A DNA stretch of 64,000 bases, from positions 8,365,246 to 8,429,245 of the forward strand of contig NC_087081.1 in assembly GCF_026151205.1 (NCBI RefSeq), given 5' to 3'. Under the pieces are notes generated by a model that did not search any database, had not been told where the DNA came from, and was given only the letters and a program-made list of their open reading frames with translations. The stretch is from Bolinopsis microptera. Taxonomy: Eukaryota; Ctenophora; Tentaculata; Lobata; Bolinopsidae. This document shows positions 6,302 through 54,544 of this stretch, piece by piece. The position numbers and the translations under genes were made by a program. Each line of letters begins with the position of its first letter. The first letter of the stretch is position 1.

Positions 6302-6713
6302 GATTTGACCCAGGTTAGCAGCTCAAGGATAAGAGGAAGGTATAACTAGTTGTGGTGGTTTACTCGAGCTTTTCTGTAATCGGGACGGGTTTTGTTTTGA
6401 CGAGCTGGTAGGATTGTTTAGACTTGTGAAAGTTTGTTTAACAGAAAACACGTGCCCGTCAAAACAGTCCGGGACTAAATGTTTGGTGTTAAAATTATTG
6501 GCGAGAGTGCAGGTTTTTTACAAGAAATAAGCTACAAATATACTAAAATTATACCGCGACTTCCGTACTCGGAACTTATAAAAGGTTTTACTACAAAAAA
6601 TGTATAATTGTAGTAAAGTAGGATTAGGGTCAAATTATTAGGGTCAAGGGTTAAGTTAGGTTTTTAGTACAGTTTATATTATAGTTTAATGGTAAGTTCT
6701 TATAGTCCATTAA
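6302..6713. other. Upstream flank of the left-edge gene, no gene seen
   Basis: This stretch lies 5' of the signal-peptide exon and should hold its promoter and 5' UTR. I see no convincing TATA box at a fixed distance, no open frame with domains, and no long repeat. Confidence 0.4.
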
Positions 6714-7525
6714 CATTGATCGACCGGGATCCCGGCCCCGGCCCCGGATACGGCCGGGATTTGTGTTTTTTCCGGCCCCGGATTTGTGTTTTTTCCGGCC
6801 CCGGCCCCGGCAAAATAATTTTCAAAATCCCGGCCCCGGCCCCGGCCAGAGGCCCCCAATCCCGGCCCCGGCCCCGGCTGTTTTAGTCAATTTTTGCCGG
6901 GATTTCTCGTATTTTCTGCCTCAATTTAAACCGATAGATTATCTGAATTTATCTTGATTTTTAGACTTAAATTAAACACAACATTTTTGGTAACATGAGA
7001 TCGAGTGAAAAATATAAATACGATGACTTGACATCATTCCAGTTTGATATTCAGAAAATTTCAACTTTGAATTTACAAAGAATGTAAAATATTAATGTTG
7101 ATTAAAAAAGTTCGAGGTTGATTAAAAAGTTCGAGTAAAGTCATGTGTTCGTGTACCGTTTTCTTTCATATAACTAGTACAAACGTCAAACAATTCAGTT
7201 CAGGAGCAAAAAACAGTAGAGAGTGAGGCCGACTCAATGCAGATGATGATGCAGATGGTGTAATTATACTTAAACATTGTGTAGCTGCCTTCTAGGTTGA
7301 CCTTGAAGCTAGCTCACATTGATACGAGTTTCCGGAAACTTTTAAAAATTTTCAAAATTATATTAAAAAATCCCGGCCCCGGCCCCGGCCCCGGCATATT
7401 TTAGCCAATCCCGCCCCGGCCCCGGCCTTGGCAACAGTTCAAAATCCCGGTTAATCCCGGCCCCGGCTGATTCAACTTGGTCCCGGCCCCGGCCCCGGCT
7501 AAATTTCGTCCCCGGTCGATCCCTG
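6714..7525. mobile_element. C-rich MITE with hAT-like ends (family 1, copy 1)
   Basis: The ends read CATTGATCGACCGGG and, as reverse complement of the right end, CAGGGATCGACCGGGG. Blocks of CCCCGG repeats fill both flanks. A second copy in the opposite orientation at 20238-20856 has the same ends and a perfect 8-bp target duplication, which assigns the family to hAT. This copy has no clean duplication (tccattaa left, ctgtccat right), so its edges are decayed or slightly misplaced. It encodes nothing recognisable. Confidence 0.75.
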
Positions 7526-7830
7526 CTGTCCATAATTAGAGTAAAGTAATTTCGTAGGTTTTATATTGCAGCATCTTTTAGAATCCTTTTAGTGCTAGGT
7601 TACATCCATTTACATTTCTTATCTTTACATTTTACGTGTAAGTACGAGTACGCGGAAGCTTTACTCATGCGTGACTTATATTCACGCGTGAGAACAGCCT
7701 ATTTAAGGGCCGACTAGTTGAGTACGGGCGTCTCTGTGTCCGCCCCCCTTTTGGAGAGAATTTAATATTATTACGAACACTACGTTATTTGATCGAATTA
7801 TTCGATCACTATTTTCTATTCTATTTAGAC
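7526..7830. other. Spacer before the hairpin array; promoter-like stretch
   Basis: Holds CCTATTTAAGGGCC near 7698 followed by a C-rich stretch (CCGCCCCCCTTTTGG near 7740), a layout like the start of a transcription unit or of a transposon leader. No coding sequence is recognised. Confidence 0.3.
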
Positions 7831-7834
7831 ATTT

Positions 7835-8505
7835 TTAATGAGACACACTTCTCATGCACCTTTATAAGTTTACTGTTAAGGTTTAGACAGTTTAGTAAGG
7901 CACACTCCTTACTGTTGTATCAGACACGCTTCTGATACAACCAAATTGTAGAGACACACTTCTCTCCTTTACTGTTACGTATTTTTTATTGAAGTTTCTA
8001 GTAAGGCACACTCCTTACTGTTGTATCAGACACGCTTCTGATACAACCAAATTGTAGAGACACACTTCTCTCCTTTACCGTTACGTATTTGTTGTTGAAG
8101 TTTAGTAAGGCCCACTCCTTACTGTTGTATCGGACACACTTCTGATACAACCAAATTGTAGAGACACACTTCTCTCCTTTACTGTTACGTATTTGTTATT
8201 GAAGTTTAGTAAGGCACACTCCTTACTGTTGTATCAGACACGCTTCTGATACAACCAAATTGTAGAGAGTAGAGACACATTTCTCTCCTTTACTGTTACG
8301 TATTTGTTATTGAAGTTTAGCAAGGCACACTCCTTACTGTTGTATCAGACACGCTTCTGATACAACCAAATTGTAGAGACACACTTCTCTCCTTTACCGT
8401 TACGTATTTGTTGTTGAAGTTTAGTAAGGCCCACTCCTTACTGTTGTATCGGACACACTTCTGATTTGACCAAATTGTAGAGACACACTTCTCTCCTTTT
8501 CTGTT
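7835..8505. repeat. Six-unit tandem array of small hairpins with a common CACACT-type loop
   Basis: After a leader hairpin at 7837-7854 (ATGAGA / TCTCAT arms), about six units of roughly 105-118 bp follow. Each unit has three perfect hairpins: AGTAAGG-CACACT-CCTTACT, GTTGTATCAG-ACACGCTT-CTGATACAAC, and AGAGA-CACACT-TCTCT. Arms differ but all loops are CACACT or a close variant. In units where the second hairpin reads ATCGG against CTGAT the stem keeps a G-T pair. The unit ends with TTACTGTTACGTATTTG. No coding frame fits. It could be a transcribed structured repeat or a transposon leader; the function is unknown. Confidence 0.8.
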
Positions 8506-10095
8506 CTTGATATTGGGATATACTTCCCGATCGTTTGATACTTGTGAGTGTAGATTGACACAGTTAGGAACGCCCACTTTCACGTAGACCACTTATAATA
8601 TACTAGCAAGTTTACAACATAATAACGCATTTAAAAAATTCCATACTTCTTATATATATTAGCAATGATAATAAATTAAAGTTGGCAGAAGTATAATATA
8701 CAAATTGCAAACGCCGAATGAAAACGTATTTATGTACTTTTTATTTTAGTAGCTGCACAGTGGACAGCATGACGTATTTATATTCCCAACAGAGTAGCTA
8801 CATGACATTTTAGCTACAAAATTGTGAAGATCAGGGTCATTGAAAGTTGAATTTAATAATTTGAAAATACAAAATAGAACGTAAAAATGGATGATTGTGT
8901 ACTGCCCAAATGTATTGAAACATGACATTTGCTGATATTTATGTGTGTTTTTGGCCATCTCGCAGATTCGTGACGGGGCCGGGAGTATATCTCGAAATAG
9001 CTGCTTTGTTTTGAGCAACCCTCCGTCTTATACTTCAAAACAAAATACTTTAATCCTCGTAATCCTTTAATCGATCGTTGAAGACCTCTCTCTCTCACGC
9101 AGGAAGTGGTATTACATCACGAGAATACACAATGTCAACCCCCCCCCCCCCCCCCCCCCCTGGCCCACTTCCTGAAGCCCTCCTACAAAACTAAAACAAT
9201 ATGCCACTTAAACAGGTCTAGTTTCCGGGGTAACCAGGTACACAGGTACTGTATCTTTATAATATAGGCTCACTTTGTTTTTCATCGACACCCCTCCTGT
9301 CTTTAAGGGACAATGTCTTGATATCACCTGTTTGTTGCCATCCAAGGTTATTTCTTATTGAGCGGGTTAGCAACCCCTCGGAATATTTGACCACGTGTTT
9401 CGTATACTCGTCTCTATAAGAGTGTAAGCAGTGAAGCAAAGTGTTGCAATATAAGGAACAAATTAACGCACCTGTACGCATTTCCGGGGCAATGTAACGT
9501 CATGTGGCAGCTCCAATGACAGGACAGAGAGACACCCCAACAATAGCCCCCAATTATAAGGGGCTGCTATACTGGTGAAGGTGTGTGCAGGTTGCTGGAC
9601 CTATATAATTCTCTTGTCTAGTCGCGTAACACCAGGTGTTAACTGCATGTTAACTGTTAAATTTATGTTTATTAGCAAGGAACCTGGTGTTTCAGTTTTG
9701 TGTACTGTATTTTGTAAGGTCGATAGCTTTTCTTGGTAGGTCATGTTATCATTTCCATGACTTGTTTTTATTTATCAACCGTTATTTTCCGTATCTGTTA
9801 AAATCTGTAAGAGAATATCAATAAACGAAGTTAACGGAATTTTGGCGGTAAGAGATTTTTATGATTGTATATATATTGACCTATATTAGGACGCAGTGAA
9901 AATACCGGGACTTGCCACCCCATGGCAACATTACAATATATCAACTCAGCTGTTACATCGTTTCCTCAAATTATTTGTTATATAGTAGTATTAAAAGTAT
10001 TAAAACTATATATAGGCCGGAGCAAGATACGAATTAAATTGAACATTTTAATTTAGGAAAGACTGTAGAAGTATAAATGAGTTGCTGTATCGTAC
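8506..10095. other. Spacer with no recognised gene
   Basis: Contains a poly-C tract of about 22 bases (near 9139-9160) and short open frames without domain signatures or splice support. Immediately before gene A lies TATATATAGG near 10007, a possible TATA element. Confidence 0.35.
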
Positions 10096-13000
10096 ATGTT
10101 GGCAGCTCTGATAACACCAAGTCTAGCAGCCCCACTCAACTCTGCGGGAGTCAGCATCTCAAACCAGGGTGAAGCTGGTATCACTGCTTTCAACTCTAAT
10201 ACTCTCGAGCAGATACAAGTAGGACTTCAACTTAACTAAGAAATTTTTGACTTGTTCTGTAGGTCTCAAGGTCAAAAGGAAATCGCGGCACGTGCAGAAT
10301 CGCGATTTTCTCAGATCCTCGCGACAAATCGCGATTATTCCAGTTCTCTGAGGACCAAATTTGCGCATTCTCCTTTAAATACGATGGCCAAATATCACGT
10401 TCTTTATAATTATATGGAACTAATCACATCCACAGCCCGAAAAAGTAATTTCTGCTCATAATGATCAGGGCCATGAAACATGAACAAAAGTAGTTTCCAG
10501 AAAAACTTTGAAAATAATTTCGATTTAGAAAATTTTCGGTCCGAGTCATTCTCGATAGGTACAAGGAAAGTGCCTCGATATGTAATTAGTTACTCTCCTT
10601 GTTAGTTGTTTCTATAACATAACTTTTATAATAATTCTTATATAATAATTTTCTATTATCACTAGAAGCCGCACAGACCTATACTATTACACACTAAGAG
10701 TAAAGATTGTTATTGTTTTGCCTGACGAGCCTGTCGCTCCCTAATCTAACTAGACTGACAAGCTAGTTGACGAATTTATGACATCTAACTTAGCTCTGCA
10801 AATACATTATCTTTCGCTGCAAATTCACCGCGATTTTGCCTAGTTTGACTTGTCGCGGCGCCGTGATTTGTGGCCTAAATTATCGCGATTTTCTTTTGTC
10901 CTTGAAGTTGGTCTGTAGATCTCTAAACCTCGAGCCAAAGTCTTGACAATCAAAGTGTTTATTCATGGTTCAGATCCATCAGATATATATATATAATATA
11001 TATATATTATATGAATGTTGTCTTCAGTTGTCGATAGTTGGCATTTACGAGAAGTCAAAGTGGAACGTGGTATTGAGAAGCTATGATGTGGGAACCTATA
11101 AATTCACTCAAAGTATTCCCTACAACGTCTCCAACAAAGATGTACTGCTATCTGAGTGAGTAATTGCCATGGTGATAAACTTTATTTCGTGACTCTGAAA
11201 GTTACCATATGGTCAATTTAAAGATGCACGAGGAACAAAAATTTCGTCCCCAATACTTAACCCTTGCTATTCAATTAGTATTTTGGATTCACCTTTAGGC
11301 TCGGGTAATAGTAAAATCTGCAGGTTTCTAAATATTCAGTTATAGACTTACGGGTAAGTAACTAACATTACTTACAGGGTAAGTAACTTACAGTACTTAC
11401 AGGGTAAGTAACTTACAGTAATTACAGGATAAATAACGTACAGTACTTACAGTACTTACAGGGTAAGTAACTAACATTACTTACAGGGTAAGTAACTTAC
11501 AGTACTTACAGGGTAAGTAACTTACAGTACTTACAGGGTAAGTAACTTACAGTACTTACAGTACTTACAGGGTAAGTAACTTACAGGGTAAGAAACTTAC
11601 AGTACTTACAGGGTAAATAACTTACAGTATTTACAGGGTAAGTAACTTACAGTACTTACAGGTTAAGTAACTTACAGTACTTACAGGGTAAGTAACTTAC
11701 ATTACTTACAGGGTAAGTTATCACACGGACCTTACAAAGGACACTAAGCTGATAATTGGAGCCAATATAGTGAGAACACACGGTTACCTGCCCCTCACTT
11801 CAGACGTCAACATTGATGAAATGTACAAGGTTAGATTTCATGCTAATTCACATTGGACAATATTTCAGTATTGCCATAGTGATAATAATATTATGATAAA
11901 AAAGAGGCTGGCATTATTCAATCACATGACTTTTCAGGTGAACCGAGAAGATGTACTACTGTATTTCATGATCAGAAACTGGTGCAAAGAAGAAGCTTGT
12001 CAGACAGTAAGCTATAGCATAAAATTAAAAACCGGATTTATATTTAGTCACAAATTATACCAGCAATTCAAAGACTACGTTTTTTGTACATGTAACGGCA
12101 TTTTTACGGTGCAAATAAAATTACATGATTGATAGTATAATTTCGACACAGTTTTTTATTTCTTATAAATTTCAGTCGGATAGCACATTAGAATTTCGAC
12201 TCTCAATCAAGACAACTGATTCTATAAAAGCTTTTCAGGAAGTCAAAAATAATAATACCAAGTGAGTAACATACATTTTAAGATTTTAAGAGAAAGTGCT
12301 CACGCAGTGCAGTTATAACAATGAAACATGAGCTATAACTATAATAATAATAACACTACTATGAAACAATAGCCACTAGGACAAACAGGAAAACTAAAAT
12401 CACCCATCTCACAAAAAATCTATACCACAGGAACCAGACCAGTGCAAAAACACTGTTTTGTAACGAAAATAACTCGTCCTGTGGGGCCAAGTTTCAGACC
12501 TACCAGATAAATACGTGCAAGCTAGCTTTCTCTAATTATGTGAGTTTTTGTATATTTTTAAAAACCAGTTCGCAACTGTTTGTCAACTGTACAACTACAT
12601 GGACCGTTATCGGTAAAATACCGTATTGCTTTGAGCGATTGTCAAGTCCAATCATGACTCCCATCACTACCGATCATTGAAAGAACGAATCACAGCGACC
12701 TGTGCAAGACTGACAATCAAGCTCACCATAATAGCATGATAAGGATCAATGAAAACAGCGAAAGCTGTACTTATCACAGCACCTACTTGTTCTCCTACAT
12801 TCATCAAGGAACCACCCAAAGAGAGTCCTGGGAGTCCAAAATACTCCACATCGTAATGCAGGATGCTCTGCCCTGCCATATGCATCGAAAAACACATTTT
12901 ACCTATTCCTATCATCATGGATTCTACCAGTAAGCCAGGTCTTGCAAGGATGATCCCGTAGGATATGGAAAATCCAAGCAAGAATGTGATTTGGAGGGTT

Positions 13001-16000
13001 ATAAATTTGAAGTACGGTCTTAGACAAAATCCTATCGGCCTACCTAGGATGTTCGCAAGGCCATTGACTGCAGCAAGGATAATATATTGATTTCCATGTA
13101 CGACTTGCTCACATTTGGTGACGTCTACAGATTCGCTGGTAAGGTTGTAATTCCTGATAATTAATGGAAGAAGCATAATACTTCCATATCCTATGAAGCT
13201 GCTAAAGCCTCCGAAAAGGCTCGCTTTCAGAACTCTCACCGGAAAATTTTCAATAGATTTAGATCCACTATCATCTTTGAGCAGGCTTGTTGATTCAGTA
13301 GTTTCGTCTTCTTCGTCGATGAAACAATGTAGCATAATTATTGGTGGGATGAACGAAGGAATGGATGTTAAGAGGACAAACTCCCGCCAGCCTAGTGTAT
13401 CAAGAAGAAGCCAACCCAGCAGCGGAGCCCATGCGCATCCGAAAGTAAATGCAATGCAGTCATGGATGAAAGAAAAAGTCGTCAGAATCTTATCGGAGGA
13501 AATATTTTTAGCACCAAAGACTCCAATTATAGTCATGTTCGACCCACAGCCCAATCCTATGAGAGCTCTAGAAAGTAGAAAAGTGTAATAATTCGGGACC
13601 AACGAGCAGAATATGGTAGAAATGATGGAGCCATACAGTGAACAGTGCAAAGTAATTTTACCTCCAAATTTTTTTTCCAACGGGACAGCACCTAGTATAG
13701 CTATACCCATAAAGACATACAGAATGATGGAAAGGGTCCCTTCCTGGAAACTAGATATCCCAAGCTCACAGGATACTTTTTGTGTGATCACACCAGGCAG
13801 ATACATTTCCACTGCATCCCCAAACTTAACCATCATAGCTAGTACAAGGAGACTGTAGTCTCGTTTGGTCCATCTCGAATCAGTATTTGTTTGGGGCGTT
13901 ACTTCGGAATCTTCCTGAAGGGCCATTTTCCTGAATAAAATGTAAACGTTTATCATTATACTGAAACATATATCACTCGGAAAGTAATCTTGCTGTCTAC
14001 ATAGATTCAATACATTAACACACGCGGTGGCCCTGATTAATTTTTTTTTGCAAAACGCTTATCAGTGTGCTTGAATCGAAGTGGTTGATGCTTAATCACT
14101 CTACATTCGACTGTCACGTGAAATTTTTAACACGTTCTCTATGGTGGCCCTGAATGGCTATTCGTATTCGCTACCCTATTATAATCTGACCCAAACCCTA
14201 ACCCTAACTAAATCACCAACTGAAGAACATCCTGAACCTTAACCCTAACGAGAAATTAGACCAAATTCCTTATATGGTCGAATCGCGTGATCGATACAGT
14301 TTTTCGCCGATGGCGACAAGGACAAAAGAAAAGCACGATCCTTTAGGCCAAAAATTGTGGCGACAAGTCAAACTAAGAAAAATTGCGGTGAATTTGCGGC
14401 GAAAGATAATGGAATCAGCGTTCGAAAATACATCAGTTCAGTTAAACAAAAATTCAGTTAAACAAAAATTCAATTTTATGCCATTTATTACAGAGTAAAC
14501 AAGTTTACAATAAATCAATTTGATATTTAAAGGAATCCTAATTCAATGTGTTGTATGGTTGTCACTCTTTAAATACTTAAATAGATTAGATATAGGTTGA
14601 CGGGGCAAAGGAGTGTGCGTGCTGTTCGCTATTGCTCACACCAAACGGCAACCTAGTAAATGTTGTGTATGGACACCGGTCTCCATCACGATACAAAATT
14701 AGGATTGTAGAATTTATTGTATAACTTTTAGTGCAGTGGAGGTAGCGGTGTGGTGCATTAAAAGAGTGACAGCCTACTAATTTAGAGTTGTTTTTAAGTG
14801 AGCATAATGGGTATATTTTTGGACCTAAAGGTTTTAGTATGGCAACTTTAAAATTGGTTCTTTTAATCATTTATTAAATATCAGTTTAAAAATACATAAA
14901 TCTGGAATCTGTTCACACTGTGAACCAGTCCTATAAAAATTTCAAATAATCCTCTTAAATTACTATTATATTAAAAACGTCTCAATAATGGAAATAGTCA
15001 TACAATTAATAAATCTACCAAATTCTTAATATCTACCTAAGAGAAAAAAATACCTACCTAAGTCAATGTCTACCTGTAATACACTAAATATTAGGTTAAA
15101 TACATAGGTGGTGGAGTCAGCACACATTTACCAAAATCAAAAATTTTTTAATAGGAGGAACCTGTGGGCCGAGAACACTGGATTAAATTTGATGAAGGGG
15201 ATTGTTTTCAAATGATAGCTGCATTATGTCATAATCGCTTGAGATCCATGCTGAATCATTATAAGCATGTTGCAGCTTTAGAAGTGCCTTTTTCAGGCGA
15301 CTTTTAGCAAGGCTAATCTTGTAGGAGTAGTCAAAAAGCTTAAGTTTAGGTGCAATTGTGCTCCAAATTTTTGTGGATCTTGATATAAAGTCATTAGATG
15401 GGAGTTGTGAAATGAGAGTGGTTTCCTTTCTAGAAGATGGCTGATAATGATGTTGCAGTGATACTGGGCACCTAAATTTCAGTATTTTAAAAACTTCCAT
15501 AAATGTGTGATATGTATATAAATTTTTGAAAGCCAGGATGTTTTGTTGCTTGAAAAGTGGTTTACAGTGCTCTAGCTGGAAGAATGTATGGTCAAGTGCC
15601 TGGTTGTTAAACTCTCTTGTTCTTGCACATGTTAGAAACTTGTTTAGGTATGCCTCTTTATCACCAAAGAGGACCCGTACGCAGTGCTTCTGAGACAGCC
15701 AGATACTTGCTGTCCTAAAAAGTGCTGCATCACCCCAAACTGATATACAATATGTAAGGTGAGATTCAAATAGTGTGTGGTAGAGGTCTTTATGCTTTTA
15801 TGGAGTTCCTTCGGTACAGAGTCCCTAATTCTATTTAAGGTGTCAGAGGCATAGTTTAACTTTCGTTTAAGTGCTGTTATATGAGGCCCCCAGGAAAGCT
15901 GTTCGTCAATAACAACTCCAAGAAACTTTGTTGCTTTGCTTTTTTTAATTGGAAAGCCATCAATATGGAGTTGAAGCGAATCTGGCAATTCTACTGGTTT

Positions 16001-20237: not shown

Positions 20238-20856
20238 CAGGGATCGACCGGGGACGAAATTTAGCCGGGGCCGGGACCAAGTTGAATCAGCCGGGGCCGG
20301 GAAAAACCGGGATTTTGAAATGTTGCCAAGGCCGGGGCCGGGATTGGCTAAAATATGCCGGGGCCGGGATTTTTTAAATCTAATTTTGAGAATTTTTGAA
20401 AGTTTCCGGAAACTCGTATCAATGTGAGCTAGCTTCAAGGTCAACCTAGAAGGCAGCTACACGAACACATGACTTTACTCGAACTTTTTAATCAACCTCG
20501 AACTTTTTTAATCAACATTAATATTTTACATTCTTTGTAAATTCAAAGTTGAAATTTTCTGAATATCAAACTGGAATGATGTATTTATATTTTTCACTCG
20601 ATCTCATGTTACCGAAAATGTTGTGTTTAATTTAAGTCTAAAAATTAAGATAAATTCTGATAATCTATCGGTTTAAATTGAGGCAGAAAATACGAGAAAA
20701 CCCGGCAAAAATTGACAAAAAACAGCCGCGGCCGGGGCCGGGATTGGGGGCCTCTGGCCCGGGCCGGGATTTTGAAAATTATTTTGCCGGGGCCGGGGAA
20801 AAAACACAAATCCCGGCCGTATCCGGGGCCGGGGCCGGGATCCCGGTCGATCACTG
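20238..20856. mobile_element. C-rich hAT MITE (family 1, copy 2) with perfect 8-bp target duplication
   Basis: Ends CAGGGATCGACCGGGG and, in reverse complement, CAGTGATCGACCGGGA. Both sides carry AAGTTAAT (20230-20237 and 20857-20864). Inverted relative to the copy at 6714-7525. It sits in the 3' UTR of the surrounding LINE, just past its stop codon. Confidence 0.93.
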
Positions 20857-25756: not shown

Positions 25757-26130
25757 ATGATTTTTGATAGTTCCCTTCCTGTAGGCGATAGTTTCAAGAG
25801 TGAGGCTGCCATAAGCGCAGCATGCAGCCTGGCTGCACCCTTACGTATAACATGCTGGCGCGTATTTTGCGCAAATTTCTTTAAAACCTCCACATATAAA
25901 CTATTTCTTATTCCTGTCATCTTTAACATTGAATTAGAATGTTTTAAACTTAAATATACCTGCTGAACTACTCTCGATGAGTCTTAATGCCTGAAAAACA
26001 ATAAAGGGGTATAATAGTAAAGGGGGTATAATAGTAAAGGGGGTATAATAGTAAAGGGGGTAAATAGTAAAGGGGGTAAATAGTATTGTGAATATAAGAG
26101 GCACGGTCATGCTTGCCAGCATTGTGATAG
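25757..26130. repeat. Dispersed repeat with a TATTATACCCCCTTTAC tandem (copy 1)
   Basis: Shares, in inverse orientation, the words AAGATGACAGGAATAA, AAGAAATTTG, the GGGGGTATAATAGTAAA tandem and an end TGCTTGCCAGCA with 50628-50990. Copies have different numbers of the 17-bp unit. Class unknown; no clear TIRs or target duplication found. Confidence 0.65.
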
Positions 26131-31043: not shown

Positions 31044-32303
31044 CTACCGATCATCGAAAGAACAAATCACAGCGACCTGTGCAAGACTGACGATCAAGCT
31101 CACGATAATAGCACGATAAGGATCAATGAAAACAGCGAAAGCTGTACTTATCACAGCACCTACTATTTCTCCTACATTCATCAAGGAACCACCCAAAGAG
31201 AGTCCTTGGAGTCCAAAATACTCCACATCGTAATGCAGGATGCTCTGCTCTGCCATATGCATCGAAAAACACATTTTACCTATTCCTATCATCATGGATT
31301 CTACTAGTAAACCAGGTCTTGCAAGGATGATCCCGTAGGATATGGAAAATCCAAGCAAGAATGTGATTTGGAGGGTTATAAATTTGAAGTATGGTCTTAG
31401 ACAAAATCCTATCGGCCTACCTAGGATGTTCGCAAGGCCATTGACTGCAGCAAGGATAATATATTGATTTCCATGTACGACTTGCTCACATTTGGTGACC
31501 TCTACAGATTCGTTGGTAAGGTTGTAATTTCTGATAATTGATGGAAGAAGCATAATACTTCCATATCCTATGAAGCTGCTAAAGCCTCCGAAAAGGCTCG
31601 CTTTCAGAACTCTGACCGGAAAGTTTTCAATAGATTTAGATCCACTATCATCTTTGAGCAGGCTTGTTGATTCAGTAGTTTCGTCTTCTTCGTCGATGAA
31701 ACAATGTAGCATAATTATTGGTGGGATGAACAAAGGAATGGATGTTAAGAGGACAAACTCCCGCCAGCCTAGTGTATCAAGAAGAAGCCAACCCAGCAGC
31801 GGAGCCCATGCGCATCCGAAAGTAAATGCAATGCAGTCATGGATGAAAGAAAATGTTGTCAGAATCTTATCGGAGGAAATATTTTTAGCACCAAAGACTC
31901 CAATTATAGTCATGTTCGACCCACAGCCCAATCCTATGAGAGCTCTAGAAAGTAGAAAAGTGTAATAATTCGGGACCAACGAGCAGAATATGGTAGAAAT
32001 GATGGAGCCATACAGTGAACAGAGCAAAGTAATTTTACCTCCAATTTTTTTTTCCAACGGGACAGCACCTAGTATAGCTATACCCATAAAGACATACAGA
32101 ATGATGGAAAGGGTCCCTTCCTGGAAACTAGAGATCCCAAGCTCACAGGATACTTTTTGTGTGATCACACCAGGCAGATACATTTCCACTGCATCCCCAA
32201 ACTTAACCATCATCGCTAGTACAAGGAGACTGTAGTCTCGTTTGGTCCATCTCGGATCAGTATTTGTTTGGGGCGTTACTTCGGAATCTTCCTGAAGGGC
32301 CAT
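31044..32303 (-). CDS. Gene B2: second SVOP/SV2-like transporter copy
   Basis: Open over the same 419 codons as B1 (12667-13926), with no stop or frameshift. Differences I count by eye are about sixteen residues, for example KKFGG to KKIGG, NLTSESVDV to NLTNESVEV, MAGQS to MAEQS, GEQVG to GEIVG, and a C-terminal RSFNDR to CSFDDR. The MFS signatures (FGDAVEMY, RALIGLGCGSNM) are unchanged. That the frame stayed open while the surrounding gene A copy broke suggests either recent duplication or retained function; a synonymous/non-synonymous count would tell. The upstream flank differs by an insertion at 32363-32509, so 5' regulation may differ between the copies. Confidence 0.85.
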   Translation of the reverse strand: MALQEDSEVTPQTNTDPRWTKRDYSLLVLAMMVKFGDAVEMYLPGVITQKVSCELGISSFQEGTLSIILYVFMGIAILGAVPLEKKIGGKITLLCSLYGSIISTIFCSLVPNYYTFLLSRALIGLGCGSNMTIIGVFGAKNISSDKILTTFSFIHDCIAFTFGCAWAPLLGWLLLDTLGWREFVLLTSIPLFIPPIIMLHCFIDEEDETTESTSLLKDDSGSKSIENFPVRVLKASLFGGFSSFIGYGSIMLLPSIIRNYNLTNESVEVTKCEQVVHGNQYIILAAVNGLANILGRPIGFCLRPYFKFITLQITFLLGFSISYGIILARPGLLVESMMIGIGKMCFSMHMAEQSILHYDVEYFGLQGLSLGGSLMNVGEIVGAVISTAFAVFIDPYRAIIVSLIVSLAQVAVICSFDDR

Positions 32304-32362
32304 TTTCCTGAATAAAATGTAAACGTTTATCATTATACTGAAACATATATCACTCGGAAAGT

Positions 32363-32509
32363 TGCTCTAACCAAAGCCCTCTCGGCGCTCTCGCTTGCAG
32401 TAGTTCGCGACCGTCGAAGGCGGCGAAGGATATATTATACTTGTGAAAGTGAAACAAGCGCGTCACGCAGTACGCGTATAGACATGGCTATAATGTGAAC
32501 TCGGAAAGT
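32363..32509. mobile_element. 147-bp insertion with 11-bp target duplication upstream of B2
   Basis: ACTCGGAAAGT stands at 32352-32362 and 32499-32509; copy 1 has it once (13976-13986). The insert includes GCGCGTCACGCAGTAC, a word also found in the LINE at 29866-29881. It could be a SINE or a LINE-derived piece; no A-rich tail is evident. Confidence 0.75.
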
Positions 32510-49700: not shown

Positions 49701-52700
49701 ATGGCCGGATAAATTAATATGTAAATTAAATTTTCCTCAGGCCACTAGGAAAGCTGATGGACGGCATTGAAGATATTAAAAACCAACTGTTGGCCACTGC
49801 AGAGGCGCTCAACGACCGGATGAATCAAATAAATGAGAAATGTGACAAGGGAGACATCAACTCAAACAACATCATCAATCGAGTAAGTGGACCCTTCTTC
49901 AGCTTGATGTAAACTTGAAACAGTGAATAATTTGATTTGGACATTCAGTGATTACCATGAGACCGAATTTTAAAATCAAAATTATCAACCCAGAAATAAC
50001 CAGCATTATGAACATCAATAATATCAAGGATTAAAGTTATGTGGTTATATCTCTAGTTAATATAATATAACTATTAGATGTTTAAGTAATGACACAACTT
50101 TTCAAAGGTACAAAACAACGAAAACAACATCAATGGTCTCTGCAACGACATTAAAAATCTCAAAGATCTTATATCCAATGGTGGAAAGATTGATTCAGAC
50201 TTCTTTCAGAGGTTCTATTTTATATTTTAAATTTAAATTCTATTTATCGATCTCTTGAACCATTGTCTTGACATAAAGAAAATTGAAAAACCCCAAATTG
50301 ACATCCAAGATATTGTTGCAAGGAATACTGTTTAATTCAATTTTCCGAAGGTTGAAGGATATAAGCGAAGTCCATGAGTTCATAAAGCAGGAGCTGCAGA
50401 ACATCACAATGAAAATGGCAACCATGAATAACCTCGATAACATCGTAAGTACACCATCATTCAGTATCCAAAGTTCCAATTATTTAGAGTAACAATTTTA
50501 CAATGAATTTTTCCATAGAATCTGCCGTACCACAGCGTTTTTTATTCTTATCTGGGACTTAGGGGTTGCTTGGAACCTGTTATCAGAAATAATGAAACAG
50601 AAACCGCAAAATGAAAATATCTAATCGATGATCACAGTGCTGGCAAGCACGACCGTTGCATTTATTGTGGGTATACTATGTTCCCCATTTACTATTATAC
50701 CCCCTTTACTATTATACCCCCTTTACTATTATACCCCCTTTGGTACACGTTACAAGCCTCTTTTGTGCACGCGAAGCGTGCACTCCGGCCGGAGGCGGCG
50801 GCCGAAGGCCGCCGCCTCCGGCAGGAGTTTTCCAGGCATTAAGACTCATCGGAAGTCGTTAAGCAGAATTATTTTTAGTTCAAAACATTCTAATTTGATG
50901 TCAAAGATGACAGGAATAAAAAATAGTTATGTTGAGATTTTTAAGAAATTTGCATAAAATACTCGCCAGCACTGTTATACGAAATTCGGTAAAAAACCCA
51001 AAATCGCCATATTCAGGTGCCTTAAAAACCATGTTAAAATTGAGTTAGAGATCTGAAATTTTTCAGGGCGTCTAGACGTTGATCAAATCGACTGCAAAAA
51101 AAGTTTCAGGTTTCAGGAGTATCGGGAAATGGGTTTTCTAGAACCCCTGTTTTACGACAGATTGTCGTGATATATATATATATATATATATACATACATA
51201 TTCAGGGATAGACGCTTTGCCAGTCAATTGTAGCCTGTATTTAATTGTCCATAGATTCAAAAGTATAAAAGATAAAGCCATTTCCGACCACAGGTCTTGC
51301 AAATAATTGTTTACACTTTAGTTTACATTGTATAAAAAAATTATTTGACGTCATAAACACCCCTTGATGACGTCATCAAGTTAACCGTTTTTAAAACTTG
51401 ATTTTTGACAAAGTAATAACTTTTAAAATTAATTTTAAACCATTAAGGAGTAATTTTATTCAAAATCTGAGGAGATTTTTATCTTAGATAATTGTTCAAG
51501 CATTCTGAAAATCTACCGGAAAGTTTTTCTAGCTTGCTCCTTCATAAAGATATTCGTGATTGAAGTTTGTGCTTTTTTGAAGAATTATTTTATAAAAACG
51601 TCAATTTTGCGATTTAGTATTCTCTGGTGTTGGGCCATGCCTTGAGTTGAGGAGCTCAGTTCTGCTTCCTATAGGTATAAATTGTGCATTAGGCTAGTTT
51701 TGAAGTTGAAAATCGAAAAGTTGCACACGTGGGGACACGCCCAAATTGATAGAAAATTGCTAAAATCACTGAAAATTGCTGTTTTCGTCATTTTCTGTCA
51801 ACTTTAGAGTGCCGTTGTGATTACAGTTCTTCTTGAAATACTTTGAAACTTTGCATGCTTATCAAGCTATATATAAAACAATTACATGAAAAAATTTACG
51901 GCGATTCAATATTGGATGCGCACGCAACGTCCGCTCAAAGTTTGCACGTGCGAAAGGTGAGAATTTTGCTCATTCGTGATTTCCAACAAATTCTGCTTTG
52001 CCACGACAGTTTAATGTCATTATATATGAATTTAATGCCAACTTGAATGAGTATTAGGTGGCATATTCAGTCAGTGATCGACCGATATGCTTACCTAAAC
52101 ACAAGGAAATGTTTTTAAAGGAAAATTTCGAAATCGTTGAAACTTCCTCCTTATTAATTAATGAAGATATCAGTTTATATTTCGACTTTATAAAGTACCC
52201 TGACATTATAATCAAAAAGAGATGATATTTTACCAAAACCCATATTCATGGGTAGAGTGGACCGCTGCCAGTGGAAAAAGCGAGCGACCGATTTCATTCT
52301 CGGTATCATTTTGCATTTGAGAACGGTCAATCAAATTAATATCATTTCCTTTTGTTTGGGAAAGAGAGACACTGGCAGCGGTCCACTCTACCCATGAATA
52401 TGGGTTTTGGTAAAATATCATATATGAATAAAAGAAAAGAATGCTTAGATGCTAACTGTTCAAATTATTTATTATTGCTGATAAGATATCCCACTCCCTA
52501 CTCTTCTCCACCAGGTAGACGTGCAACGTGAGAGGCTGAGTGAAGCAGAAGATACTCTTCGTCAGCACTGTGATGAGGAGACCACTGCTAGAAATCAGTT
52601 AGCTCTCCTTCTTATCAGTTTCTTATCTATTGGAGTATTGGTGGTTTTATTGATCGTTTGCGTTCAAACACGATAAACGAGCCAAGCTTGATCATGCCAA

Positions 52701-54544
52701 GAGATCAAAGTTATCTGCCAGGTACGAATATCGTATTAATATAGATCAATTGACCCAAATCAATTATTTGTAGGTTCCTTCAAAAGCTGCAGGATATTGA
52801 GAACGCACTGAAGAAGTTAGAGCAAAATAAATCCGACTCTGACAGACGAACGGATAAGCTAACAGATAGACTCGATAGTCTGGCGAGGTCTATTCAGGTT
52901 TGTCAAAATTCTTACATTTTACCGAATAGAAAAAGAAGAAAAAAACCCGATTAACCGTAAACTTAATACTACATATTATAACAGTATAACCGCAGGATCA
53001 CTGATTTTGAGAACTATCAGCGATTTCTATTTATAGTTATATTTCTGAACGAAGCTCTCACGTTCGATTTCGATCCGTCTCCGTTACAGGAACAAAACTC
53101 AAAAGTTGACAGGATGAACTCTGATATTTCAACTGCTATAAAAGACTTTGACAAGCAAATAAACAAACTAGAACCACAATTGGACAGACAACGAGACTTG
53201 ATAGATGGTAGGTGCTTGCAGCTGCTCGGCAGAGCCTCAAATGTAGTATCAGAACTGTAACAGTACTGATAGGTTGGCATTTTATGGGGGTCACCTCGTT
53301 ATTTTCACTTACACGATGCCTTCCACTAAACCGGAAGAAAAATAAACAGTAAAATAATGTTATTGATTTTAACTCAGGTTTGAAAAATGAACGAGACAAC
53401 AACAAAAGTGATCTACAAAGATTGAGAGACAAGTTAGAAGGATTGGAGAAAGTTTTACGACAGTAATAATCTTTAATAACTTTGTTTTAATTTCACTCAT
53501 ATCTGTTTGTTTTTTAAAATCATGCTACAGAAATCCATTGTTCATTCGACCTCTTTTTGAATCTCACAAATTCTCCGTAGATTGAGCGAACTACCTAGTT
53601 CAAGTAAGCGGAGAGTTAGTACTAACAACATTGAGGAGATAACAGTAACAGAGGTGGCCACAACTGAATCAGGTAAAAGATAACTGTAACAGTGATACAG
53701 TGGTAACTGTAACAGTGGTAACTGTAACAGTGGTAACTGTAACAGTGGTAACTGTAACAGTGGTAACTGTAACAGTGGTAACTGTAACAGTGGTAACTGT
53801 AACAGTGGTAACTGTAACAGTGGTAACTGTAACAGTGGTAACTGTAACAGTGGTAACTGTAACAGTGGTAACTGTAACAGTGGTAACTGTAACAGTGGTA
53901 ACTGTAACAGTGGTAACTGTAACAGTGGTAACTGTAACAGTGGTAACTGTAACAGTGGTAACTGTAACAGTGGTAACTGTAACAGTGGTAACTGTAACAG
54001 TGGTAACTGTAACAGTGGTAACTCTAACAGTGGTAACTCTAACAGTGGTAACTCTAACAGTGGTAACTCTAACAGTGGTAACTCTAACAGTGGTAACTCT
54101 AACAGTGGTAACTTAGTGGTAACGCGTAAAATAACCCTATGTTCACTCATGGTGACCATTCCACTTATATGGGTCAGTCAAATAATGAGCTTGTTAACAT
54201 ACTTTATTCCCAGCAAGAGGAGGAGGCGGAGGAACTGGAGGAGGCGGAGGAGCTTCCAGTTCATCTGCCCAACAACAAAGCAGCTCCTCTAGCGGCAACT
54301 TAAAGGGATTCCTCCGTGAGTAGTCTGATAGTCCATGGATCTAAGGAATCTGATTTTGGGCTCTGTAAATCTACTTTACTAATCATTTTAATCGTCATTA
54401 ACTCGTCATTAACCGTCATTAATTCTGCTAATCCTATTTTCCCACTCAGAGAACGTCAACAGTGGCAAAGAAAATGATGCTCTGAAATCAGGCGCTATCA
54501 CCCCTAAAAGTAGACGAAGCTCGGTTCTTGTGATGACCACGTAG
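46765..54544 (+). CDS. Gene C: coiled-coil protein, 18 exons, tail-anchored and soluble forms predicted
   Basis: Exons, all with consensus borders and agreeing phases: 46765-46836, 47016-47060, 47667-47798, 48101-48370, 48506-48793, 48937-49030, 49232-49292, 49481-49582, 49741-49882, 50108-50211, 50351-50444, 52515-52676, 52774-52897, 53090-53207, 53378-53462, 53581-53672, 54214-54315, 54450-54544. Exon 12 ends with a transmembrane helix (LLISFLSIGVLVVLLIVCV) and a stop, giving a 521-residue tail-anchored protein. Exon 10 leaves phase 2 and exon 13 needs phase 2, so skipping exons 11-12 gives a 641-residue soluble form ending SRRSSVLVMTT. Exons 4-7 hold Gln/Lys coiled coil, Cys/His clusters and a 9-residue repeat; exons 8-11 and 13-15 are heptad-rich coiled coil. 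Exon 17 is Gly/Ser-rich. I recognise no named family; a scaffold or tether is a guess. Confidence 0.75.
48545..48690 (+). repeat. 27-bp coding repeat in exon 5 of gene C
   Basis: Five to six copies of a 27-bp unit encode QHVRVASPV; later copies are identical at DNA level, so they arose recently. The run lies between the first coiled coil and a Cys/His cluster (APCSHHCSTGC). Confidence 0.9.
50628..50990. repeat. Dispersed repeat with a TATTATACCCCCTTTAC tandem (copy 2)
   Basis: Inverse copy of 25757-26130, in the intron between exons 11 and 12 of gene C. Near its middle lies a GC-rich palindrome (GGCGGCGGCCGAAGGCCGCC) at about 50790-50820 that copy 1 lacks. The following stretch to 52221 is intron with no recognised gene and an (AT)n run near 51173-51192. 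Confidence 0.65.
52222..52421. mobile_element. 200-bp foldback element with perfect 52-bp inverted arms
   Basis: Arms begin ATGATATTTTACCAAAACCC and run through GGTCCACTCTACCC-type sequence to CAGTG; the two arms match without mismatch around a 96-bp centre. No clear target duplication. It lies just upstream of the transmembrane exon of gene C. As transcribed intron RNA it would form a long hairpin. Confidence 0.85.
53693..54113 (+). repeat. 15-bp intronic array (AGTGGTAACTGTAAC)n
   Basis: About 27 units between exons 16 and 17 of gene C; the last seven units carry CTCTAAC in place of CTGTAAC. Each unit joins an acceptor-like AACAG to a donor-like GGTAACT. The unit resembles sequence right after the exon 16 donor (GATAACTGTAACAG), which may be where it began. 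Confidence 0.9.

Follow-up and report, generated by a model that had tools for sequence, protein, structure and literature searches.

Introduction

The core of the retroviral packaging signal psi lies between the primer binding site (PBS) and the start of gag. Some retroviral encapsidation signals consist of two hairpins in the 5' untranslated region that share a loop motif. Examples are the GACG pair of murine-leukemia-type viruses and the double hairpin of spleen necrosis virus (PMC5086612, in part). For LTR retrotransposons, the passages on packaging in PMC4974528 state that the NC domain of Ty3 is required for RNA packaging and that the packaging sequences and Gag sites of Ty1 and Ty3 are not precisely defined. 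Hairpins with a common loop were also described in RNA viruses. Several stems in the 5' region of coronaviruses (SL5) carry one hexaloop, UUYYGU, for which a role in packaging was proposed (PMC10927501, in part), and dispersed packaging signals are made up of many genome-wide hairpins with a shared motif for recognition by the coat protein (PMC6281560, in part), the RGAG loops of hepatitis B virus being such signals (PMC7612645, in part). Neither arrays of LTR hairpins that share one loop nor dispersed packaging signals of LTR retrotransposons were found among the open-licence papers listed.

The 64-kb stretch of Bolinopsis microptera DNA analyzed here (the window) contains an array of 20 hairpins within a long terminal repeat (LTR). 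The element to which this LTR belongs resembles yeast Ty3 and other Ty3/gypsy elements (Metaviridae) in its LTRs, its PBS-like site, its zinc-knuckle gag and its order of protease, reverse transcriptase, RNase H and integrase. It differs in having an array of hairpins with a common loop, of which the packaging passages of the Ty3 account (PMC4974528) make no mention. Like the retroviral pairs, the array presents shared-loop hairpins in an inferred 5' leader, but there are 20 in the window LTR instead of two, they lie upstream of the PBS and some hairpins of the element are located in coding sequence. Multiple 5' stems under one hexaloop are also seen in coronavirus SL5, where, however, a single junction carries two or three loops of another sequence and the virus group is unrelated. 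As in dispersed packaging signals, many hairpins with one motif are found along the RNA, coding sequence included; here, however, the sites are concentrated in the LTR and binding by a coat protein is putative.

Results

A row of hairpins with one loop

Tandem Repeats Finder delineated a 104-bp unit with 5.8 copies and 91% matches at positions 7889-8505 of the window. The six units follow each other at spacings of 106, 104, 111, 104 and 104 bp, which corrects the unit length of 105-118 bp given in the first-pass annotation to 104-111 bp. Three hairpins per unit (A, B and C), a leader hairpin (L) and a trailing hairpin (D) add up to the total of 20 (Table 1). The 19 hairpins that had been counted between 7835 and 8505 were all recovered, and hairpin D is located just beyond this range. 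The six A hairpins have AGTAAGG arms, with a C.A mismatch in one near 8314 and a CCCACT loop in two; the six B hairpins have GTTGTATCAGA arms, with G.U in two, the last of which has lost part of its stem; and the six C hairpins have AGAGA arms, with a CACATT loop in one. Owing to these deviations, the earlier description of the hairpins as perfect does not hold for all of them. The loop CACACT is nearly constant across the differing stems.

Table 1. Positions of the array and of the surrounding LTR in the window
Feature	Position	Strand	Remarks
Target-site duplication TAAT, left	6605..6608		LTR flank
Solo LTR, TGTAG...ACAACA	6609..8619	+	Aligned to the 973-bp LTR; C7 copies mutually 100% identical
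Nested insertion, C/G-rich repeats	6711..7527		Gap in alignments to L005-L007; borders accurate to a few bases
TATA-like box TATTTAAG	7700..7707	+	Probable promoter element; most family copies have TTTAAGGGC at the corresponding position
Leader hairpin L, ATGAGA CACACT TCTCAT	7838..7855	+	Most other copies have GTGAGA/TCTCAC
Unit 1: hairpins A, B, C	7893..7965	+	
Unit 2: hairpins A, B, C	7999..8071	+	
Unit 3: hairpins A, B, C	8103..8175	+	A with loop CCCACT; B with one G.U
Unit 4: hairpins A, B, C	8207..8286	+	C with loop CACATT
Unit 5: hairpins A, B, C	8318..8390	+	A with C.A mismatch
Unit 6: hairpins A, B, C	8422..8494	+	A with loop CCCACT; B degraded
Trailing hairpin D, ATTGGGA TATACT TCCCGAT	8512..8531	+	Aligned in 16 loci
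U5-end motif GGAACGCCC	8567..8575	+	Sister families have the similar GGTACGCCC or GAGCGCCCC close to the end of their LTRs (by eye)
Target-site duplication TAAT, right	8620..8623		LTR flank

Folding of the region 7720-8600 yielded a z-score of -7.3, and none of 20 shuffled sequences was equally low. The motif CA[CT][AG]CT was flanked by a stem of at least 5 bp in 15 of its 16 occurrences at 7720-8619, the tandem copies among them not being independent, compared with 0.4-0.7% of positions. Stems accompanied the motif in one of 46 cases on the plus strand of the window outside the LTR and in one of 54 when the minus strand was scanned over the entire window. Matches to Rfam 15 families above the gathering score and tRNAs were not found in the 64-kb window.

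Several further features of the window were recorded. Two nearly identical open reading frames on the minus strand (12667-14058 and 31044-32366) appear membrane-transporter-like by eye and probably reflect a segmental duplication. Tandem Repeats Finder also reported 27.8 repeats of the 15-bp palindromic unit ACAGTGGTAACTGTA with 99% identity at 53697-54113, and two arrays of the 17-bp tandem unit TAAAGGGGGTATAATAG in opposite orientation (26002-26085 and 50683-50741).

The LTR and its longer copies

A search of the 264.65-Mb genome (232 contigs) retrieved at least 40 matches, four pairs of which are spaced by 7.4-7.5 kb on one strand each (C1, C6, C7 and C12). At C7, the two copies share 973 identical bases (TGTAG...ACAACA). 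Both this element and the window copy display the TG...CA ends of LTRs and a 4-bp target-site duplication, CGTT on the outer sides of the C7 pair and TAAT in the window. Neither a PBS nor gag follows the window copy, which identifies it as a solo LTR; the array probably occupies its R-U5 part, and the TATA-like box is probably a promoter element. This LTR membership had escaped the first-pass annotation. The insertion nested in the window LTR is missing from the other LTR copies, and a reversed relative of it, 88-96% identical in pieces, is found at 20238-20856.

A genome-wide search for the stem-CACACT-stem pattern had been proposed earlier as a check. The pattern RGACACACTTCY, which covers hairpins of the L, B and C types but not A, occurred 248 times compared with 280 times for its reversed control. 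The motif is thus not enriched outside the element family, and a host-wide hairpin code beyond such elements was rejected.

Longer copies with gag and pol are present elsewhere in the same genome. In the C7 copy, the LTR is followed by TC and then by the PBS-like sequence TGGAGGGCCACGG, which starts 2 nt past the LTR, and the gag ATG lies 27 nt after the LTR. One CCHC zinc knuckle of Gag was detected by Pfam (PF00098) and a second by eye, the Retrotrans_gag match being under the Pfam cut-off. Pieces of L005 and L009 contain PF13975, PF00078, PF17919, PF17917 and PF17921 in this order (Pfam); in the pol piece, a protease is followed by reverse transcriptase, RNase H and the zinc-binding domain of an integrase, which is the Ty3/gypsy order. 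Judged from its LTRs, zinc-knuckle Gag and domain order, the element is a Ty3/gypsy-type LTR retrotransposon, referred to as family 1.

Two pattern searches of the genome did not reveal a primer tRNA matching TGGAGGGCCACGG. The first pattern gave three exact matches, each in or beside such an element (C1, C7 and C8), and three with one mismatch, and the matches to a tRNA-shaped pattern were rejected as palindromic repeats. At C7:574020-587473 (L005-L007), three identical family-1 LTRs follow one another at distances of 5.0 and 7.5 kb. As L006 equals L007 over all 3471 bases, part of the element is either duplicated there or misassembled. A related family (L022-L027 on C11, C10 and C4) agrees with family 1 at the beginning of U3, in the leader hairpin and over half of hairpin A, and differs thereafter; two of its copies are inverted, 8.3 kb apart, on C10.

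Hairpins inside the element

Four internal pieces of the C7 copy (6660 nt) were searched for stems of at least 6 bp that enclose a 6-nt loop with at most one mismatch to CACACT. Five such hairpins were detected, three in gag (CAAGAA CACAGT TTCTTG, CTTGAG CACACT CTCAAG and GTAGCTA CACGCT TAGCTAT), one in pol (TTCGTCAC CACTCT GTGACGGA) and one close to where the internal region ends on its 3' side (TCTAGC CACACT GCTAGA), compared with a mean of 0.07 and a maximum of 1 in 60 dinucleotide shuffles. The antisense strand of these pieces contained none. Synonymous-codon shuffling of gag gave a mean of 0.11 and reached three hairpins in none of 1000 shuffles, while the pol hairpin by itself is not significant (reached in 62 of 1000 synonymous shuffles). 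No CACACT-type hairpin was detected on the sense strand of five internal regions from sister families (two copies of family 2 and one each of families 3, 4 and 5) or in a 2.7-kb internal piece beside L032; the family 5 region has one on its antisense strand. The limits of one mismatch and six pairs were set once the data had been inspected, a bias that this cross-family control and a strict count offset in part: with the LTR motif CA[CT][AG]CT fixed beforehand, three of five occurrences in the C7 internal pieces have a stem of at least 6 bp, and the two stemless ones are located in L097. The pol and 3' hairpins are also present in the C12 pieces. The C6 copy adds little, as its gag is 96% identical to that of C7; one gag hairpin is kept there and two are broken by small changes.

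Hairpins with the loop types of families 2 and 3 were not found in the internal pieces of these two families. Dispersal of hairpins with one loop motif, coding sequence included, is therefore seen in family 1 but not in families 2 and 3.

Variation of the stems in family 1

The number of units differs between family copies (30 further loci scanned). Arms in relatives include AGTGAGG/CCTCACT (L030), AGTGAGA/TCTCACT (L032) and ATCGGGA/TCCCGAT (L036) with CAGACT or CACACT loops, and 13 of 14 loop motifs in L005 are flanked by stems. The single-unit relatives L030-L033 keep the order L, A, B, C, D with some hairpins broken in each, and in diverged relatives a 5-bp stem accompanies one of five (L032) or one of three (L030) loop motifs. 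The A-T pair that replaces G-C in the leader stem of the window was discarded as a clean compensation, as it is accompanied by a 4-nt insertion.

The last units were aligned for 16 of 28 inspected loci, leaving out L002 (no anchor), L028 (degraded), L034, L035, L037 and L040 (rearranged or without hairpins) and the near-copies L004, L042, L044, L045, L047 and L048. In this alignment, 90.8% of the cells pair, compared with 38-52% when one arm is slid. This percentage was reached by 12 of 500 shuffles and the covariation score by 27 of 500. Three pairs changed on both sides, a number reached by 163 of 500 shuffles, and the leader hairpin had no such change. The covariation check that accompanied the first-pass annotation thus gave a weak result within hairpins, and the case rests on the comparison between different hairpins. 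An undirected 4-mer loop statistic (200 shuffles) was significant in two of 12 stretches (L032, 0/200; L029, 1/200), with 100/200 for the window, 55/200 for L005 and no significance in families 2 and 3 (best value 15/200 for L062); the motifs of the later motif-anchored stem test were picked by eye.

Arm states in family 1 comprised 14 G.U and 14 A.C cells, a test without strand bias that is rough because the L and C hairpin classes overlap in the script. Arm changes that break pairing are consequently as common as those that keep it by wobble, which had been named earlier among the signs that together would speak against the hairpins but is partly due to the many copies that are relics. This lack of a preference for sense RNA would also fit a feature of DNA or replication, namely protein sites in the LTR, cruciforms or a structure of the minus-strand cDNA. 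LTRs often contain repeated regulatory sites, and R-U5 is copied into strong-stop DNA. On the other hand, a site recognized in duplex DNA would not require flanks that vary yet stay complementary, and the stem-borne loop in gag occurs on the sense strand only, which makes this explanation very improbable.

Exposed constant hexaloops at repeated sites could instead act by base pairing, be it as RNA-RNA kissing loops, with the tRNA primer or with a remote stretch of the RNA that carries them. A candidate partner, GAGTGT, is located just behind the array (about position 8546) in the window and in most family copies. It is altered, however, in L032-L035 and L039, which retain CACACT loops; AGTGTG occurs zero times in three internal pieces, CACACU is not self-complementary and the primer tRNA escaped both pattern searches. 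Pairing of the loop with a partner, one of the options considered earlier, is accordingly the most improbable of all the explanations weighed here.

Sister families with other loops

Sister families with their own LTRs (paired matches) show 49-52% identity to family 1 in reverse transcriptase and about 28% in gag. None of 12 stretches of approximately 2.5 kb that precede distant gag genes (L010-L021) contained a CACACT-loop array. When the LTR ends of those loci were read, arrays emerged at the same LTR place with the loops ACUUC in family 2 and YGUUU in family 3; the motif searches for both families were made post hoc with motifs picked by eye. Families 4 and 5 have no such array, as judged by eye from hairpin lists. 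Two short sequences recur at the LTR borders: a GGWACGCCC-like motif near the U5 end is common to families 1, 2, 3 and 5 (L010-L017 and L052-L068; by eye), and most of these families share the PBS start TC TGGAG, the remainder of the PBS being different.

Between two and 12 hairpins per locus (at least 4 bp, loop starting with YGTT) were found in 17 loci of family 3, several of them truncated. Their stems include AGTCT, GTATCT, CGTAGCT, GACCT, ATATCT and AGTAGTT among others, and their loops read YGTTTnnnAC or CGTTYATC. A stem of at least 5 bp flanks YGTT[TC] in 10 of 17 cases in L070, 10 of 15 in L069, 8 of 13 in L062 and 8 of 14 in L076, against a background of 3-4%. An alignment of 14 of the 19 family-3 loci (leaving out L078, L081 and L082 as near-copies or short and L015 and L068 for a missing array) paired in 93.7% of cells, compared with 39-49% when slid. 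Covariation was again weak, with one double change (H10 omitted) that 375 of 500 shuffles reached. The 55 G.U and 12 A.C cells of this alignment were not used, since many G.U cells are a built-in closing pair and four distinct rows are misaligned in H10. Family 2 has three to five hairpins (by eye) with ACTTC in the loop, and stems accompany this motif in 4 of 4 (L052), 2 of 4 (L088) and 4 of 6 (L091) cases. As its GTACGA stem is nearly constant as well, family 2 is evidence for an array in this part of the LTR but not for the principle of varied stems.

The earlier proposition that unrelated stems share a loop to an extent beyond duplication is supported by these data, since the same loop recurs on other stems in gag, pol and the 3' part and family 3 repeats the arrangement with another loop. 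Such repeats might also be a by-product, palindromic repeats spread by template switching without a present role, and the varying unit number, the many relic copies and the weak covariation would be expected in that case. We consider this improbable, as the occurrence of one loop on different stems, also in coding sequence, exceeds both plain and synonymous shuffles and a second family does likewise with a different loop.

A probable 5' leader

The C7 leader, measured from 30 nt past the homologous TATA-like box up to the start codon of gag, spans 696 nt and contains no ATG, where 6.6 would be expected from its dinucleotides. Eight leaders of families 2 to 5 contain zero or one ATG, compared with 1.8-7.1 expected, their start points being guesses. 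The TATA-like box, the PBS-like site and the ATG-free stretch suggest that the array region is part of a 5' leader, and the ATG-free stretch fits a leader that would be transcribed and scanned.

In such a leader the hairpins could be targets of a host RNA-binding protein or contribute to the translation, export, stability or localization of the retrotransposon mRNA instead of its packaging. Scanning agrees with the zero to one ATG in all nine leaders of families 1-5, and the same LTR is also present at the 3' end of the RNA. The hairpins in gag and in the 3' part, however, need not matter for a leader function, a single host reader does not account for the different loops that sister families use within one host and the motif has no genome-wide excess. 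A role of this kind is regarded as rather unlikely, and a host protein fits the differences between families less well than Gag.

Discussion

The first-pass annotation had proposed that the constant loop is read as RNA or single-stranded DNA, either by a protein or by base pairing. The presence of the same loop on other stems in gag, pol and the 3' part of family 1, together with the parallel in family 3, favors a loop that is read on RNA, while the pairing partner found no support. We consider it highly probable, from the sequence comparisons, that the hairpins are functional RNA recognition hairpins of the element.

The sense RNA of the element is predicted to fold into a series of short hairpins whose stems differ but whose hexaloop, CACACU, is the same. 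The older set appears to have comprised five hairpins (L, A, B, C and D), of which the A-B-C block would have been multiplied in tandem in family 1. The loop would serve as the recognition letter and the stem as its holder. This anatomy requires a reader that recognizes a short loop, is largely indifferent to the stem, profits from multiple copies, is specific for the family and tolerates sites in coding sequence, which a Gag with zinc knuckles would fit. The element's own Gag could thus be the reader by means of its two CCHC zinc knuckles, and many equal sites per RNA might allow Gag to choose and gather full-length RNA for packaging. Of the explanations weighed here this is the most likely, although the chances that the hairpins are packaging signals on genomic RNA read by Gag appear evenly balanced.

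The retroviral psi offers a partial analogy. Hairpins with exposed shared loops in a 5' leader are a common trait, provided that the leader status suggested above is correct. The array is nevertheless not filed as a retroviral psi because it lies upstream of the PBS, with only the 27 nt mentioned above between LTR and gag ATG, and because binding by Gag is putative. By analogy with the known shared-loop hairpins, it may nonetheless work like a packaging-signal array.

Since the arrays of sister families carry other loops at the same place, the loop would be a family address. Tentatively, each family may possess a private loop along R-U5 (CACACU, YGUUU or ACUUC) that is read by its own Gag as an address code for self-packaging, and at least one family would have such sites spread over the LTR, gag and the 3' end. 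Short RNAs and a single protein domain would suffice to test the candidate, and a constant loop on varied stems in R-U5 provides a search recipe for other genomes. If true, the arrangement would be a candidate for how Ty3-group elements tell their genomic RNA from other RNA, and such an address code would let each of several related elements that share a cell package its own RNA to the exclusion of the others.
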